Shown here piece after piece: positions 42,118-64,000 of a stretch of DNA of 64,000 bases. Positions within the stretch are counted from its first letter, which is position 1. Each line of letters starts with the position of its first letter. Under the pieces are notes generated by a model that did not search any database, was not told the DNA's origin, and saw nothing but the letters and a program-made list of their open reading frames with translations. Position numbers and translations under genes: made by a program. Location: NCBI RefSeq assembly GCF_024298905.1, contig NZ_CP101154.1:806001-870000 (forward strand). The letters are read 5' to 3'. The stretch is from Natronomonas marina. Lineage in GTDB: Archaea; Halobacteriota; Halobacteria; Halobacteriales; Haloarculaceae.

Positions 42118-43008
42118 TCACCGGCTTCCCGTCTGGAGCCGCCGGAGTACCGCCCGAAGACGCCGCCTGACGCCGTCGAACTCGGGCGGTGTGTCCTCCA
42201 TCCGCCGGCCGATACGCACGCTCGCCCACCCGAGGGCGACGCCGAAGACGACGTCGGTCGCCCAGTGGATGCCGAGGTACATCGTCGACAGGGCGACGCT
42301 GACCGCGAGGACGGCGGCGACGGGAACCCACAGCGGGTACTCCTCGCGGGTCGTCCAGGCGAGCAGTGCGGCGGTCACGGCCATTGAGGTGTGCAGCGAC
42401 GGGAAGACGTTCGTCTGGTGGTTGACCGACGCCGTGAGGAACTGGAACTGGGTGTACTGGGTGAACAGCAGTCCCTCGACGTCGCCCGCGATGACGTTCC
42501 GGGGGCCGTAGGCGATGAAGAGGACGTAACAGACGACGCCGATGACGTAGTTGGCGCCGTAGGCGACGACGGTCCTGCGGATCGGCTTCGGGTCCCGGAG
42601 CGCGAAGTACGCAACCACGGGAAACACCAGCAGGAAGACGTAGCCGAACACGTAGACGAACGAGAAGTACGCGGTCAGTTCGGGGCTGGCTCGGGCCTGC
42701 AGCCAGACGACGACCTGCGGGGCGGACGACCCGTACAGCGGCCACAGCAACAGTCCGTCGAGGCGGTGGATGTAGGGGGTGACGTTCAGACCGATGAGCC
42801 AGGAGATGCCCGGGCCGATGTCGCGGGCCACCTTGTTCGCCACCAGCACCACCGCGAGCAGGCCGAAGTACGGCGCGACGGACGAAAAACGCTCGCGGTA
42901 CTCGTATCTCGTCCGGACGAGTCGCTCGCGGCCGACGACGACGCCGGTGGTCACGAGAAGCATCGCCGCCACCACGGCGAGCACCTGCCCGAGGACGACG
43001 AAAAGCAT
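42118..43008 (-). CDS. PAP2-superfamily membrane phosphatase/transferase
   Basis: A 296-residue integral membrane protein with about six or seven helices. It carries the PAP2 active-site motifs in the variant used by the PAP2_3 / inositol-phosphotransferase-like group: FPSLHTSMAV (in place of PSGH) near residue 205, and STMYLGIHWATDVVFG near residue 245, which holds the second catalytic His and Asp. A canonical first KxxxxxxRP motif is not obvious. It may dephosphorylate lipid phosphates or transfer a head group. Its ATG overlaps the stop codon of the solute-binding protein by one base, an unusual pairing. Confidence 0.85.
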   Translation of the reverse strand: MLFVVLGQVLAVVAAMLLVTTGVVVGRERLVRTRYEYRERFSSVAPYFGLLAVVLVANKVARDIGPGISWLIGLNVTPYIHRLDGLLLWPLYGSSAPQVVVWLQARASPELTAYFSFVYVFGYVFLLVFPVVAYFALRDPKPIRRTVVAYGANYVIGVVCYVLFIAYGPRNVIAGDVEGLLFTQYTQFQFLTASVNHQTNVFPSLHTSMAVTAALLAWTTREEYPLWVPVAAVLAVSVALSTMYLGIHWATDVVFGVALGWASVRIGRRMEDTPPEFDGVRRRLRAVLRRLQTGSR

Positions 43009-44768
43009 CAGGCGGTCCCCCTGGTGACGAGACGGTCGCCGTCGTACTGGTAGCCGGCCTCGCGGAACGCCGCGCGTGCGGCCTCGACGTCGAGGTCGCC
43101 GTCCTCGCCGAGGAAGGACAGTCTGGCAGTGCCGTCCCACTCGAGTACGTCGGGGACCCACCGGCCCTTCAGCGCCGCCTCGGCCGGGTCGGCGTAGCCG
43201 CCGAAGGCCGACGATACCAGGGACTCGCGGTCGACGTGTCGGGCGACGACACGCCGGAACCGCTGGTTCGACAGCGGCGCGCGCCGACAGTTGTAGCCGA
43301 GGAGATAGAACGGCTCCGCCCGGGCGACAAGCAGCGACAGCGCCCCAGTCCGGGTGACCCGCGGAACCGTGCCGGCGTGGAGGCCGTCGGCGGTGGCGTC
43401 GGCGTCGCCCGCCTCCAGCAACTCCGCGGCGGCGTCCTCGGAGGGCGCGACGGTGAACGCCGCCCGGTCGAACGCCGGCGGCCCCGCGATACCGTCGGGT
43501 ATCCCCCCGGTGTCGCCCCGGTACAGGAAGTGTGACTCGAAGGTCTCCAGCTCGAGCGACCGGTCGGTGGTCGCGCTCACGAACCGGAGGGGGCCGCTGC
43601 CGACCGGGTCCTCGTTGGTCCTGACGAGCGCCTCCGTCGTCCCACCGACGAGGTCGATGCCGGCGAGGTCGGCCGCGTCGCTGTACTCGCTCCAGACGTG
43701 CTCCGGGAGGATCGGCACCTCGAGCGCGCGGCGGGCTATCGCCGGGTTGTCGGTCGTGAACGTCATGTGTATCGTCCCGTCCCGTACCGTCGCGTCGTCG
43801 ACGAGCGAGACGGCGCCCCGCCGCCACGGCGTCGGCACCGGCGTGTCCATCCCACCCAGCGAGGTGTCCGTCAGGAACTCGTAGGTGAACGCGACGTCTG
43901 CGGGCGTCACCGGCTCCCCGTCGTGCCACGGCGTCTCGCGGAGCGGGACCGTCGCTGTCAGTGATCCCGCCCCCTCGTCCCAGTCGACCGACCGGGCGAG
44001 CCAGGGGACCGGCGACCCGGCCGGCCACCGGACGAGCGGCTCGTACAGCAGGTCGACGACGCGGCTCCGGTTGCGGTACTCGACGGCCAGCGGGTTCCAG
44101 TTCTTGGTCGGCCGAACGTCGTTGACGACCGGCCGGAGGGTACTCTCCTCGCCGTCCCGCCGTAGCCGGAGGTAGTCCGTCGGCCTCGTCGGGCCGCCGG
44201 CCATCCAGCCGTCGAACCGCTCGGTCCGGGCCGCCGCGATGTGGTCCGCGAAGGCGACGACGGTGAACGGCTGGAGTTCGACGACCCGGTCCTGGAGCCT
44301 GCGGACGGTGGCGACCCGTTCGCCGCCGCCGACCGTGCGTTGCTCCTCGAGGAGGTCGTCGACGGCCACGCTGCTGAAGCCGAAGGGGTTCTGCCAGCCG
44401 GCCTCCTCGCCGTAGGCGGAGTGAAGCAGGGTCCGTAGCTCGTCGGGGTCGCCACGGCTCGGGTACCGGCCGACGTAGATGTCGTACCGGTGGTTCACGA
44501 GGACCTCCCGCAACAGCACGTCGGGCGCCATCGGGGAGACGCTGACGCCGATTCCGGCGCTTTCGAGGTTCTCCCGGAGGTGATTGGCCAGCCGGATGGC
44601 GTAGGCGTCCTGGCTGGCCGGCACCGTCGCTATCGACAGCGACAGCTGCCGGCGCCGCTCGCGGCCGACCAGGTTCTGGAGTTCGCCGACACAGCCGCTG
44701 GCGGCCGCGAGCGACCCCGCAGCACCCGCGAGCAGTGCCCGGCGACGGAGGGCGGGTCCCGGGGACAT
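43008..44768 (-). CDS. Peptide/nickel-type solute-binding lipoprotein, apparently circularly permuted
   Basis: A 586-residue exported lipoprotein of the SBP_bac_5 family (DppA/OppA-like). It has an RRR signal and lipobox Cys near residue 26. In normal members the segment like NWNPLAVEYRNRSRVVDLLY, then WHDGEPVTPADVAFTYEF, comes at the N-terminus; here these begin at about residues 222 and 281. Residues 41-190 instead resemble the usual C-terminal segment (QLSLSIATVPASQDAYAIRL, GIGVSV, YDIYVGRYPSRGDPDELR, NPFGFSSVAVDDLLEE, VELQPFTVVAFADHIAAA, FDGW). The protein ends at AAFREAGYQYDGDRLVTRG, exactly where that segment would follow in a normal protein. No permease or ATPase genes are adjacent. 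The start is ATG at 44768; GTG at 44777 is possible. Confidence 0.8.
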   Translation of the reverse strand: MSPGPALRRRALLAGAAGSLAAASGCVGELQNLVGRERRRQLSLSIATVPASQDAYAIRLANHLRENLESAGIGVSVSPMAPDVLLREVLVNHRYDIYVGRYPSRGDPDELRTLLHSAYGEEAGWQNPFGFSSVAVDDLLEEQRTVGGGERVATVRRLQDRVVELQPFTVVAFADHIAAARTERFDGWMAGGPTRPTDYLRLRRDGEESTLRPVVNDVRPTKNWNPLAVEYRNRSRVVDLLYEPLVRWPAGSPVPWLARSVDWDEGAGSLTATVPLRETPWHDGEPVTPADVAFTYEFLTDTSLGGMDTPVPTPWRRGAVSLVDDATVRDGTIHMTFTTDNPAIARRALEVPILPEHVWSEYSDAADLAGIDLVGGTTEALVRTNEDPVGSGPLRFVSATTDRSLELETFESHFLYRGDTGGIPDGIAGPPAFDRAAFTVAPSEDAAAELLEAGDADATADGLHAGTVPRVTRTGALSLLVARAEPFYLLGYNCRRAPLSNQRFRRVVARHVDRESLVSSAFGGYADPAEAALKGRWVPDVLEWDGTARLSFLGEDGDLDVEAARAAFREAGYQYDGDRLVTRGTA

Positions 44769-44946: not shown

Positions 44947-45531
44947 ATGTCCCTCGAACTGGGTCGGCGCCTGGTTCACGCCTCCGGTGCCGTCATCCCG
45001 GGCGCGTATCTCCTCGACGAGCACGTTCTCGGGACCGGACTCGTCACCTGGCGCGTGGTACAGGCGGTCGCGGTCGCCGGCCTGGTGGCCACCGCGGCCC
45101 TGGAGGCCGCCAGACTCTCCGGGGCGCTGGAACACCCCATCTACGACCGGCTCACCCGCGAGTACGAACAGGACAAGGTCGCCGGCTACGCCCTCTACGT
45201 CCTCAGCGGGACGGTCGTGGTCCTGCTCTTCGACCCCCGCATCGCAGTTCCCGCGCTGTTCATGCTCATGCTCGGCGACCCCGTCAGCGGCATCCTCTCG
45301 ACGGGCGAACTCCGGACGATCAAGCGGCCGCGCGTGCTCGTTGGAATGTTCCTCGTCAGTCTCGTGCTGGCGTACCCGTTCGTCGGCCCGGTTGCGGCGG
45401 TGGCCGGCGCCCTCGGCGCGATGCTCGCCGACGGCGTCAAGCCGACCGTCGGCGACTACGTCGTCGACGACAACCTCACGATTCCGATCGCCGCCGCGAT
45501 TCCGATGTGGGTCGCCCTCGCCGTCGTCTGA
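44947..45531 (+). CDS. Dolichol kinase/polyprenol kinase-like membrane protein
   Basis: A 194-residue membrane protein with about six helices. It resembles the SEC59/DGK1/VTE5 family of CTP-dependent polyprenol or diacylglycerol kinases: LGRRLVHASGAVIPGAYLL at the start, the cytoplasmic LMLGDPVSGILSTGELR near residue 115 containing the conserved GDP, and a final GALGAMLADGVKPTVGDYVV near residue 158. A role in recycling dolichol or archaeal lipid intermediates is plausible (family inference). It has its own promoter, divergent from the solute-binding protein operon. Confidence 0.8.
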   Translation: MSLELGRRLVHASGAVIPGAYLLDEHVLGTGLVTWRVVQAVAVAGLVATAALEAARLSGALEHPIYDRLTREYEQDKVAGYALYVLSGTVVVLLFDPRIAVPALFMLMLGDPVSGILSTGELRTIKRPRVLVGMFLVSLVLAYPFVGPVAAVAGALGAMLADGVKPTVGDYVVDDNLTIPIAAAIPMWVALAVV

Positions 45532-61677: not shown

Positions 61678-62286
61678 CTATCCCGGCGTCTCTCCGTGCT
61701 TCCTAACAAAATCACGCCAACCCGCATAATCCGTATTCTCCCATATGTGTTTGGCCGTACTACTTCCACTCACATGGCGAGCGACCGACGAGGCAGACCG
61801 ATGGCTATACTGGCACCCCTCTATCGGACAGTCGATTCTCAGTTGCGACTCTCCCATGTTGCCCATCATCGTCTCAATGATCGACTCCGTCTCGTATTCA
61901 TGCTCGTCATCCTGGTTTTTGTCCGCCGAGTGTTCGACAAGCGAGGATGGTGATTGCGTTTCTGCTTTTGCCAGTACCCACTCGTCTTCATCAATCTCGA
62001 AATTTGAAGAGACGCTGAACACAGCCGCATACGGTTCGGCATTTGGTGGCAGTCGGTCAAGGTCGAACTCTCCACACGAGTCCTGTATGCGACGGTGAAG
62101 CGTCTCGAACTGGTCGCGCTGTAGTGGAATGGTTTCGTTCTCGCCGCGGTAGTCGATAAGCACCCGATGTTCCTGAACGTCGGTGACGCGAAACGCCTTC
62201 CGCGAGAGTGGGGTGACGAGGGTCGCGTCCGATGGAAGTTCCTCGACGTTTTCGAGAAGGTTGTTCCACGTCGTACCGAATGTCAT
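61678..62286 (-). CDS. Accessory protein with C2H2-type zinc finger
   Basis: A 202-residue protein less GC-rich than its neighbours. The first 110 residues are a beta-rich domain (ATLVTPLSRKAFRVTDVQEH, VLIDYRGENETIPLQRDQFE) without a recognised family. A disordered Ser/Glu/Asp-rich linker follows. Near residue 152 lies a finger of the form C-x4-C-x12-H-x8-H (CPIEGC, later RH and KH), and the end is GWRDFVRKHGE. It may bind nucleic acid. The ATG at 62286 fits a minus-strand TATA-like box (cctttattca, about 62307-62316). It sits between two tRNA genes beside a gene remnant, suggesting acquired DNA. Confidence 0.6.
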   Translation of the reverse strand: MTFGTTWNNLLENVEELPSDATLVTPLSRKAFRVTDVQEHRVLIDYRGENETIPLQRDQFETLHRRIQDSCGEFDLDRLPPNAEPYAAVFSVSSNFEIDEDEWVLAKAETQSPSSLVEHSADKNQDDEHEYETESIIETMMGNMGESQLRIDCPIEGCQYSHRSASSVARHVSGSSTAKHIWENTDYAGWRDFVRKHGETPG

Positions 62287-62510
62287 GCGAGCGGGTACGG
62301 CGGGCTTGAATAAAGGATTCAGGAGCCGTGTGTATTGAGTGCCGGCGCAAGAACTCGTGTTCTTTGAAATTGATACATTGGAGATAGCACGATCGCTGAT
62401 TTCTACGGCGATCATATCGTAAAACGGCCTACAGTGGCCGAGAAAGCACAATTACAGAGTAACCCACCCCACACGTATTTAACTAGTGAGATTGTAAACA
62501 AAATGGTGTA

Positions 62511-62584
62511 AGCCGGTGGAGGGATTTGAACCCTCGACCTAATCCTTACGAAGGATTCGCTCTGCCAGTCTGAGCTACACCGGC
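62511..62584 (-). tRNA. tRNA-Thr(CGT)
   Basis: Read on the minus strand, acceptor strands GCCGGTG and CACCGGC pair fully, with discriminator U (base 62511), as in archaeal tRNA-Thr. The anticodon stem AATCC/GGATT encloses TTCGTAA, giving anticodon CGT. The T arm is GAGGG-TTCAAAT-CCCTC. No intron is present. Confidence 0.97.
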
Positions 62585-62633
62585 ACTACATTCCACCGTG
62601 GGGGGATAATCGCAATAAGGGTTGCGAATCGAA

Positions 62634-63728
62634 CTACTCTTCGAGCACCCGGCTACCGTAGATTACCAGGATGACCGCGAGTACGATCGCGGCCAGGAGG
62701 CCGAACACGGCGAGGCCGGTCGTTCCCGCGATCTCCTGAAGCCCGCCGACGAGGGAGTCGTCGCCGTCGCCGGTCTCGGTCGGCCCACCGTCGCCGGTGC
62801 TGTCACCGTCGCCGCCGTCGTCCGCGGTGTCGGTGCCGGTGCCGTCTTCGGAGCCGTTCGTGTCGCTTCCCGTGTCGTCGCTACCGTCGTCACTCGAGCC
62901 GTCGTCGCCGTCGGATCCGCTACTGTCCGAACCGGTCGAATCGTCGCCGTCGTCAGCCCCGTCGGTCGTGTCGTCACCGCCGTCGGAGCCGCTGCCGTCC
63001 GAACCGGTCGAATCGTCGCCGCCGTCGCCGGAACTCCCATCGTCGGAGCCACCGGACGTCGAGTCGTCGTCATCGTCGTCGACGAACGTCGGCGTCGGGC
63101 CGGACTCGCCGCCGTCGCCATCGGTCGGCGTGGGCGTGTCGGTCGGCGTCCCGTCACCGCCGTCACCGTCGGTCGGCGTGGGCGTGTCGGTCGGCGTCCC
63201 ATCACCGCCGTCACCGTCGGTCGGCGTGGGCGTGTCGGTCGGCGTCCCGTCACCGCCGTCACCGTCGGTCGGCGTGGGTGTCGGGGTAGCCGTCGGGGTC
63301 GGCGTGGGTGTCGGGGTCGACTGGGATTCGACGGTGATCGTCGTCGAGGTGCTGGTCGTCTTGTCGTTACCGTTCTCCTTGAACTTCGCCGTCGCGCTCA
63401 CGGTGTAGTCGCCGGGCTCTGTGTCCTCGGGAACTGTAAACGTCAGCGATGGGTTCCGGCTCGCGCCGGGGTCAATCTCCTCGTAGAACCGATCGTCACA
63501 GTTGTCCGAGACCGTAAACTCACTCGGACAGGAAAGCCCCAGAACGTATGAGTTCGCGCTATCACCCGTGTTGGTCAGAGTGAACTCGACCGTCACTTGC
63601 TCGCCCGGAGCCACTGTCTTGTCGCCGCTCGAGGATAGGTCCGCTCCCGCGAACGCGAGACTCGAAGCCGACACGACGACCAACAACGCCGCCAGAACAC
63701 CGATTCCAATCTTGCTCTCTGTTTTCAT
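62634..63728 (-). CDS. Cell-surface protein with beta-sandwich, Thr/Pro repeats and C-terminal anchor
   Basis: A 364-residue surface protein. It has a signal peptide (GIGVLAALLVVVSASSLAFA), one beta-sandwich domain of about 100 residues of the NEW3/CARDB kind (VTVEFTLTNTGDSANSYVLG, TVPEDTEPGDYTVSATAKF), and a stalk. The stalk starts with Thr-Pro repeats and continues with copies of the 16-residue unit TPTPTDGDGGDGTPTD (48 bases, at about 63110-63290), then a long Asp/Ser/Gly region that is probably glycosylated. It ends in a membrane helix (TGLAVFGLLAAIVLAVILVI) and a short RVLEE tail. Its ATG overlaps the stop of the dockerin-like gene by four bases, so the two are co-translated. Confidence 0.82.
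   Translation of the reverse strand: MKTESKIGIGVLAALLVVVSASSLAFAGADLSSSGDKTVAPGEQVTVEFTLTNTGDSANSYVLGLSCPSEFTVSDNCDDRFYEEIDPGASRNPSLTFTVPEDTEPGDYTVSATAKFKENGNDKTTSTSTTITVESQSTPTPTPTPTATPTPTPTDGDGGDGTPTDTPTPTDGDGGDGTPTDTPTPTDGDGGDGTPTDTPTPTDGDGGESGPTPTFVDDDDDDSTSGGSDDGSSGDGGDDSTGSDGSGSDGGDDTTDGADDGDDSTGSDSSGSDGDDGSSDDGSDDTGSDTNGSEDGTGTDTADDGGDGDSTGDGGPTETGDGDDSLVGGLQEIAGTTGLAVFGLLAAIVLAVILVIYGSRVLEE
63110..63290 (-). repeat. 48-bp in-gene tandem repeat (Thr/Pro/Asp stalk)
   Basis: About three and a half copies of a 48-base unit encode TPTPTDGDGGDGTPTD in the stalk of the surface protein. Copies differ by single bases. Such repeats can change the stalk length between strains. Confidence 0.75.
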
Positions 63729-64000
63729 GCTTGTCCCTCCGATTGCTGGTCGTTCCGCCACTTTTCAGCGATGTCCAGCAGGTCGAAGTCACTGATTAGT
63801 TCACCGCACGTCCCAGGAACTGGCTCGTTCTGTCGCCACAGCCCGGCTGCATCCAAGAGTTCAAAGTCGCTTATATTTCCGTCGTCGTTCTCGTCGACAG
63901 CCTCCAGAATCGACACACATTTCGTGGTCACGACGCCGCCATCGGTCACCTGCGTGACGTCCTCGCCGCCGGGCGTCGTCGTCACGTCGAAGCTTGCGTT
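63725..64000 (-). CDS. Secreted protein with dockerin-like C-terminus, 5' part outside the window
   Basis: The frame is open to the right edge (first visible residues NASFDVTTTPGGEDVTQV), so the start lies beyond it; 91 residues are visible. The C-terminal 60 residues resemble a dockerin: a full EF-hand-type Ca loop, DENDDGNISDFE, followed by a helix LLDAAGLW, then a degenerate second repeat (CGELISDFDLLDIAEKW). Dockerins normally bind cohesin domains. The stop codon overlaps the ATG of the anchored surface protein (ATGA), so the two are expressed together and may interact. Confidence 0.65.
   Translation of the reverse strand, partial: NASFDVTTTPGGEDVTQVTDGGVVTTKCVSILEAVDENDDGNISDFELLDAAGLWRQNEPVPGTCGELISDFDLLDIAEKWRNDQQSEGQA

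Follow-up and report, generated by a model that had tools for sequence, protein, structure and literature searches.

The minus strand of the window, that is, the whole 64,000-nucleotide stretch of Natronomonas marina DNA that was analysed, carries a gene for a solute-binding lipoprotein of the SBP_bac_5 family (hereafter SBP), followed directly by a gene for a PAP2-superfamily membrane enzyme (Table 1). The base at 43008 belongs both to the TGA stop codon of the SBP gene and to the ATG start codon of the PAP2 gene, confirming the one-base coupling reported in the preliminary description. The other neighbours of the pair in the window include asparagine synthase-like, PurL-like and creatininase-like genes, and no transport gene was found among the window neighbours, as had also been reported. 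In the signal region of SBP, Gly25 and Cys26 are invariant in an alignment of 43 homologs, and twin arginines together with an [AGST]GC lipobox are present in 42 of the 43. A 194-aa membrane protein is encoded divergently from the SBP gene (44947-45531, plus strand) and is conserved only within Natronomonas; its identification as a dolichol kinase was dropped, the likeness being by eye only and profiles giving no match. The G+C content is 0.614 at positions 62001-64000, compared with ~0.69 in the rest of the window.

Table 1 Features of the SBP-PAP2 locus (positions in the window)
Feature	Position	Strand	Basis
Solute-binding lipoprotein of 586 aa, permuted SBP_bac_5 (cluster C)	43008..44768	-	Pfam, phmmer, AF2, fold matches
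SBP signal region, residues 1-26: LRRR twin arginines and lipobox Cys26	44691..44768	-	sequence, homolog conservation
SBP residues 41-202: correspond to the DppA/OppA/AppA C-terminal segment, now N-terminal	44163..44648	-	
SBP residues 203-585: correspond to the canonical N-terminal and middle part (canonical 1 to ~360)	43014..44162	-	
Integral membrane enzyme of family PAP2_3 (PF14378), 296 aa, with an AUR1-type active-site signature	42118..43008	-	
PAP2 residues 196-262, catalytic motifs NVFPSLHTS and STMYLGIHWATD	42223..42423	-	
PAP2 motif residues His206, His248, Asp252; Thr242 replaces the usual C3 arginine	within 42223..42423	-	
TATA-box-like TTTTTATG, 27-34 nt 5' of the SBP start codon	44795..44802	-	consensus match only

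SBP scored 133.7 bits against PF00496 (SBP_bac_5), for which the curated cut-off is 32.4. The Pfam match pairs residues 253-579 with positions 2-284 of the 368-position profile, and a second stretch is matched separately. When PDB sequences were searched with phmmer, SBP residues 236-533 paired with residues 43-306 of 5isu and SBP residues 60-197 with residues 356-490, and 6hlx showed the same rotated pairing. A profile of residues 41-202 built from the 43 homologs found almost only SBP_bac_5 proteins in the PDB (best E 4e-7), nearly all of them at chain residues ~340-520. The AF2 model of the whole SBP (pLDDT 87.7, pTM 0.85) fits canonical structures over residues ~203-585 only, where it superposes on AppA 18-358 (Z 21.5, rmsd 2.8, 329 residues). 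Residues 41-202 were modelled separately (pLDDT 74.4), and this model superposes on AppA (1xoc) 359-517 through SBP residues 41-188 (Z 9.6, rmsd 4.8) and on DppA (1dpp) 343-504 (Z 9.6). The two parts together tile AppA 18-358 and 359-517 and so make up the complete three-domain fold, with the cut point between AppA residues 358 and 359. Since the C-terminal segment comes before the core, SBP departs from the standard order of the family and is classed here as a permuted relative. The rotated order of segments claimed from the sequence is thus supported by Pfam, phmmer, the profile of residues 41-202 and the structure superpositions. The idea that residues 41-190 are an unrelated extra domain was examined and is ruled out by the PDB profile matches and the superposition, which place this segment in the C-terminal part of SBP_bac_5; a second, normal C-terminal segment was looked for at the end of the protein and is absent, the chain stopping at the end of the core according to the fold match. 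An assembly or frame artefact is ruled out by the identical order in 43 of 43 aligned homologs. We regard it as virtually certain that SBP is a natural circular permutant of a cluster C SBP_bac_5 binding protein.

SBP shares with DppA, OppA, AppA and NikA the whole fold, the WHDG and DPD motifs, lipoprotein export and every segment, and 26 of its positions are invariant, several of them in motifs common to canonical binding proteins; it differs from these proteins in being rotated at AppA ~358/359 and in having no adjacent transporter genes. A naturally permuted binding protein has already been described in another cluster, namely the tethered TpMglB-2 (Tp0684, 'Cluster Bc'; PMC4990184). TpMglB-2 differs from SBP in belonging to cluster B, in its cut, in serving a glucose ABC transporter and in having no enzyme partner. 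Permuted and tethered as it is, it keeps ligand binding and domain closure, and its authors proposed that such a topology may have evolved to suit a tethered protein (PMC4990184); the permuted haloarchaeal lipoproteins fit this idea. In the literature searched, which excludes most subscription papers, we found no description of a permuted SBP_bac_5 protein or of an SBP-PAP2 pair, and a vesicle proteome study (PMC10927574) discusses binding proteins in general only.

The PAP2 gene lies directly downstream of the SBP gene in 44 of 49 distinct haloarchaeal family genes, and the two frames overlap (-1 or -4) in 27 of these 44 linked cases. Tandem SBP-PAP2-SBP-PAP2 arrays occur at three loci (L038, L046, L049), and two family SBPs without an adjacent PAP2 gene (L036, L053) come from genomes that hold another SBP-PAP2 pair. 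Among 194 genomes, scored for a strong SBP match and a PAP2 match at E 1e-20 or better, both genes were found in 126, one alone in 1 + 1 and neither in 66, in counts compiled by hand that ignore kinship. Because a full-length SBP gene and a PAP2 gene are both present but far apart in four genomes (G033, G141, G179, G136), linkage alone does not account for their co-inheritance. Full-length SBP relatives were found across the class Halobacteria and, at E 1e-40, in none of the other classes of the phylum sample; no PAP2 relatives were confirmed in viral contigs. Conservation of the PAP2 partner, which the preliminary description had left to be checked, is borne out by the 44/49 linkage and the 126-genome co-occurrence, and SBP and PAP2 very probably form a conserved functional pairing. 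No ABC genes lie directly beside the pair among the ~49 distinct family genes, so that PAP2-linked SBPs lack the operon partners that mark an ABC importer, permeases and ATPases. The inheritance of the permuted SBP with the PAP2 enzyme suggests that a transport-type protein now serves a cell-surface enzyme. The public plasmid copies inspected are labelled only 'ABC transporter substrate-binding protein' and 'phosphatase PAP2 family protein'.

Permutation itself extends beyond the pair. A set fetched through a PF00496 survey of 24 haloarchaeal genomes and the reading of loci comprised 57 canonical proteins and 52 of the PAP2 family; another 20 permuted proteins share the cut of the latter, and 3 have a second one. 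The non-PAP2 permuted proteins adjoin permease genes, and most adjoin ATPase genes too (for example L115, L119, L120, L121, L130); one (L082) had no neighbour in view. Permuted SBP_bac_5 genes in haloarchaeal DppBCDF-type operons were observed at L058, L115, L119, L120, L121, L124-L130 and L135. Permutation and transport are thus compatible, as permuted SBPs stand beside permease genes. In the genome of the window, all four SBP_bac_5 proteins appear permuted, the window protein and L058 with cut A, and L056 and L057 with cut B (L057 by eye). Proteins with the second cut (L139:5941-7923, L107:14377-16791, L057:1414-3351) end after the GW..P segment and start with the next helix pair, the cut lying further downstream, and all three adjoin ABC genes. 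Plasmids of Alphaproteobacteria (Nitratireductor, Roseomonas, Ketogulonicigenium, Microvirga) carry relatives with the same permutation, which group with the PAP2-linked clade but differ from SBP in lying within ABC operons, beside two permease and two ATPase genes where annotated, together with M28 peptidase and hydantoinase genes. Three such SBPs are encoded at L151:6740-8383, L152:6899-8584 and L154:4800-6476; genes for M28 peptidase, hydantoinase/oxoprolinase and IclR regulators adjoin their ABC operons. The view that permutation is tied to partnership with PAP2 was not upheld: a PAP2-specific permutation is ruled out by the permuted SBPs that accompany DppBCDF-type operons, and permuted SBPs are found in ABC operons of both haloarchaea and Alphaproteobacteria.

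In the tree, the PAP2-linked proteins group in a single clade (100/100) on a long branch, nested in a larger, mostly permuted clade (100/99) that includes bacterial proteins. A single origin of all cut-A proteins was rejected (p-AU 4.9e-5 under LG+G4), a test to be read in the light of long branches and possible reversals. The sequence tree implies several separate permutation or reversal events. At another locus (L134:5114-9859, minus strand), one open frame encodes two complete canonical SBP_bac_5 units in tandem, followed by an acidic C-terminal tail that is dockerin-like by eye. Tandem duplication, fusion and trimming are a plausible route to permutation, of which this protein is the expected kind of intermediate.

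These relationships bear on the possibility that SBP is an orphan importer subunit, feeding an ABC importer encoded elsewhere while PAP2 cleaves phosphate from a lipid or a phosphorylated nutrient before uptake. The nearest permuted relatives do lie in complete ABC operons, and SBP retains stretches typical of canonical proteins, DPD and WHDG among them. We nevertheless consider this explanation rather unlikely, given that the ~49 genes examined lack ABC genes directly beside the pair, that the PAP2-linked SBPs make up a clade of their own on its long branch, and that the inheritance of SBP tracks PAP2 and no tested transporter.

The PAP2 partner scored 67.1 bits against PF14378 (PAP2_3; curated cut-off 27), and its PDB relatives by profile are PgpB, YodM, LpxE and AUR1. 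Its block FPSLHTS...STMYLGIHW..D aligns with FPSLHSG...STMYLTHHYFVD of AUR1 (9vj3, 9ivc; E 5e-4 to 7e-4 in the PDB search), so that the AUR1-type signature FPSLH...STMYL...H...D is present. FPSLH, the STMYL core, H248, D252 and Thr242 are invariant in 30 of 30 PAP2 members, and the arginine-containing C3 motif of classical PAP2 phosphatases (SRxxxxxHxxxD) is absent, Thr242 standing in its place in all 30. AUR1, the inositol phosphorylceramide synthase, likewise has Thr at the C3-arginine place, but it is eukaryotic and aligned at only E 5e-4 in the PDB search. PgpB and YodM (5jwy, 5jki) have in common with the partner the PAP2 fold family and the C2 and C3 histidines and aspartate, but carry the C3 arginine and have no SBP partner. 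In AUR1-type synthases, the His-His-Asp triad mediates attack on lipid phosphate esters (PMC5964470). The earlier assignment as a PAP2-type phosphatase is thus correct as to superfamily (PF14378) but not as to a standard phosphatase, in view of the AUR1 signature and the missing C3 arginine. Judged by its motifs, the partner is reasonably likely to be AUR1-like rather than a plain phosphatase. Hydropathy and charge suggest that its catalytic loops face outward, where the lipoprotein would be, and the enzyme probably works on the outer membrane face.

A plain carrier-lipid phosphatase was also considered. In this view PAP2 would take part in dolichyl (di)phosphate recycling or remove phosphate from a lipid, and SBP, its pocket vestigial, would be only a stabilising or assembly subunit. 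Matches to PgpB, YodM and undecaprenyl-diphosphatase profiles are in keeping with such an enzyme, as is, in Natronomonas, the neighbouring small membrane protein that resembles dolichol kinases by eye. Thr in place of the C3 arginine in 30/30 and an STMYL signature that is AUR1's argue against it, as do the 26 invariant SBP positions, several in canonical binding-protein motifs, and we judge this explanation quite improbable.

No conserved wider operon was found: only an arylsulfotransferase/PMT_2-like gene pair and an uncharacterised membrane protein recur near the pair. The former consists of an arylsulfotransferase-like gene and a gene for a large membrane protein, PMT_2-like in some loci (L036:4871-7861, L040:11078-14073, L041:10430-13395, L053:12390-15692, L153:537-3749, L161:2196-5262), and it also lies beside the SBP copies without PAP2 (L036, L053). 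The latter is an extracellular or membrane protein of ~400-460 aa with the motif LWPYTS...HVR, encoded directly upstream in several loci (L032:4636-5898, L040:7264-8460, L042:10505-11881); an LssY_C identity was dropped, Pfam and NCBIfam giving no match. At other loci, glmM or glmS is near the pair. The arylsulfotransferase, PMT_2-like glycosyltransferase and glmM/glmS neighbours are hints of surface glycans or carrier lipids. Because the wider neighbourhoods are not conserved, they do not fix the pathway.

We propose, with a probability of about 0.5, that the pair is a conserved haloarchaeal cell-surface module in which a former transport SBP presents a ligand to an AUR1-like enzyme or controls its activity. 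The first gene supplies a lipid-anchored, permuted binding protein of the oligopeptide/dipeptide family, cut at the domain III/domain I crossing, descended from permuted transport proteins and with no transporter of its own; the second supplies a polytopic PAP2-superfamily enzyme whose AUR1-type His-His-Asp site is probably open outward. The anchored SBP would be positioned over or near the enzyme at the outer face, presumably in physical contact with it. There it could capture a polar ligand, such as the donor or acceptor of a headgroup or part of a glycan or peptide, and present it to the enzyme, or it could switch the PAP2 enzyme upon ligand binding. The substrate of the enzyme would be a membrane lipid or polyprenyl carrier, on which it would transfer or remove a headgroup linked through phosphate. 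We slightly favour an action of the binding protein on the PAP2 enzyme, and the best reading of the motifs would make an AUR1-like lipid phosphotransferase or phosphatase its target.

The nearest functional analogue may be LpqW, a mycobacterial lipoprotein with the SBP fold that channels Ac1/Ac2PIM4 to lipomannan (PMC3229680). LpqW (2grv) is among the structure and profile matches of SBP, as one among many SBPs, and the two have the SBP_bac_5 fold and the lipoprotein nature in common; SBP, like LpqW, combines these with the lack of a transporter. LpqW affects envelope lipid-glycan synthesis, but it has the canonical order, its matches to SBP dividing at the canonical split, acts with different enzymes and lacks a PAP2 partner. 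More specifically, we tentatively suggest that SBP could serve an AUR1-like lipid phosphotransferase as its dedicated subunit at the outer face; LpqW apart, such a role as accessory to an enzyme is undescribed in the SBP_bac_5 family. Within this family, permutation may have arisen several times, mostly in anchored haloarchaeal transport proteins, with the transport context kept.

A lipid-anchored SBP with a membrane partner and no transporter could also be a ligand sensor. It would detect a ligand outside the cell and pass the signal on through the membrane enzyme, for instance by a change in lipid composition in response to salt, nutrient or phosphate stress. Haloarchaea use SBP-based sensing with transducers, namely BasB and CosB with their Htr proteins, which speaks for a sensor. 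Yet no conserved transducer, kinase or regulator gene lies beside the pair, and signal transduction is not known for PAP2 enzymes; we hold this explanation to be improbable.

About two thirds of the sampled haloarchaeal genomes carry the pair. If the module proposed here operates as a ligand-presenting or regulated enzyme pair, AUR1-like headgroup chemistry with a binding-protein subunit would exist at the archaeal cell surface, where, to our knowledge, the enzymes for a number of lipid and glycolipid steps are still missing. The repeated permutation offers a natural series for testing the effects of chain order and anchor position on binding proteins, and it is also a warning that profile annotation hides such permutations.
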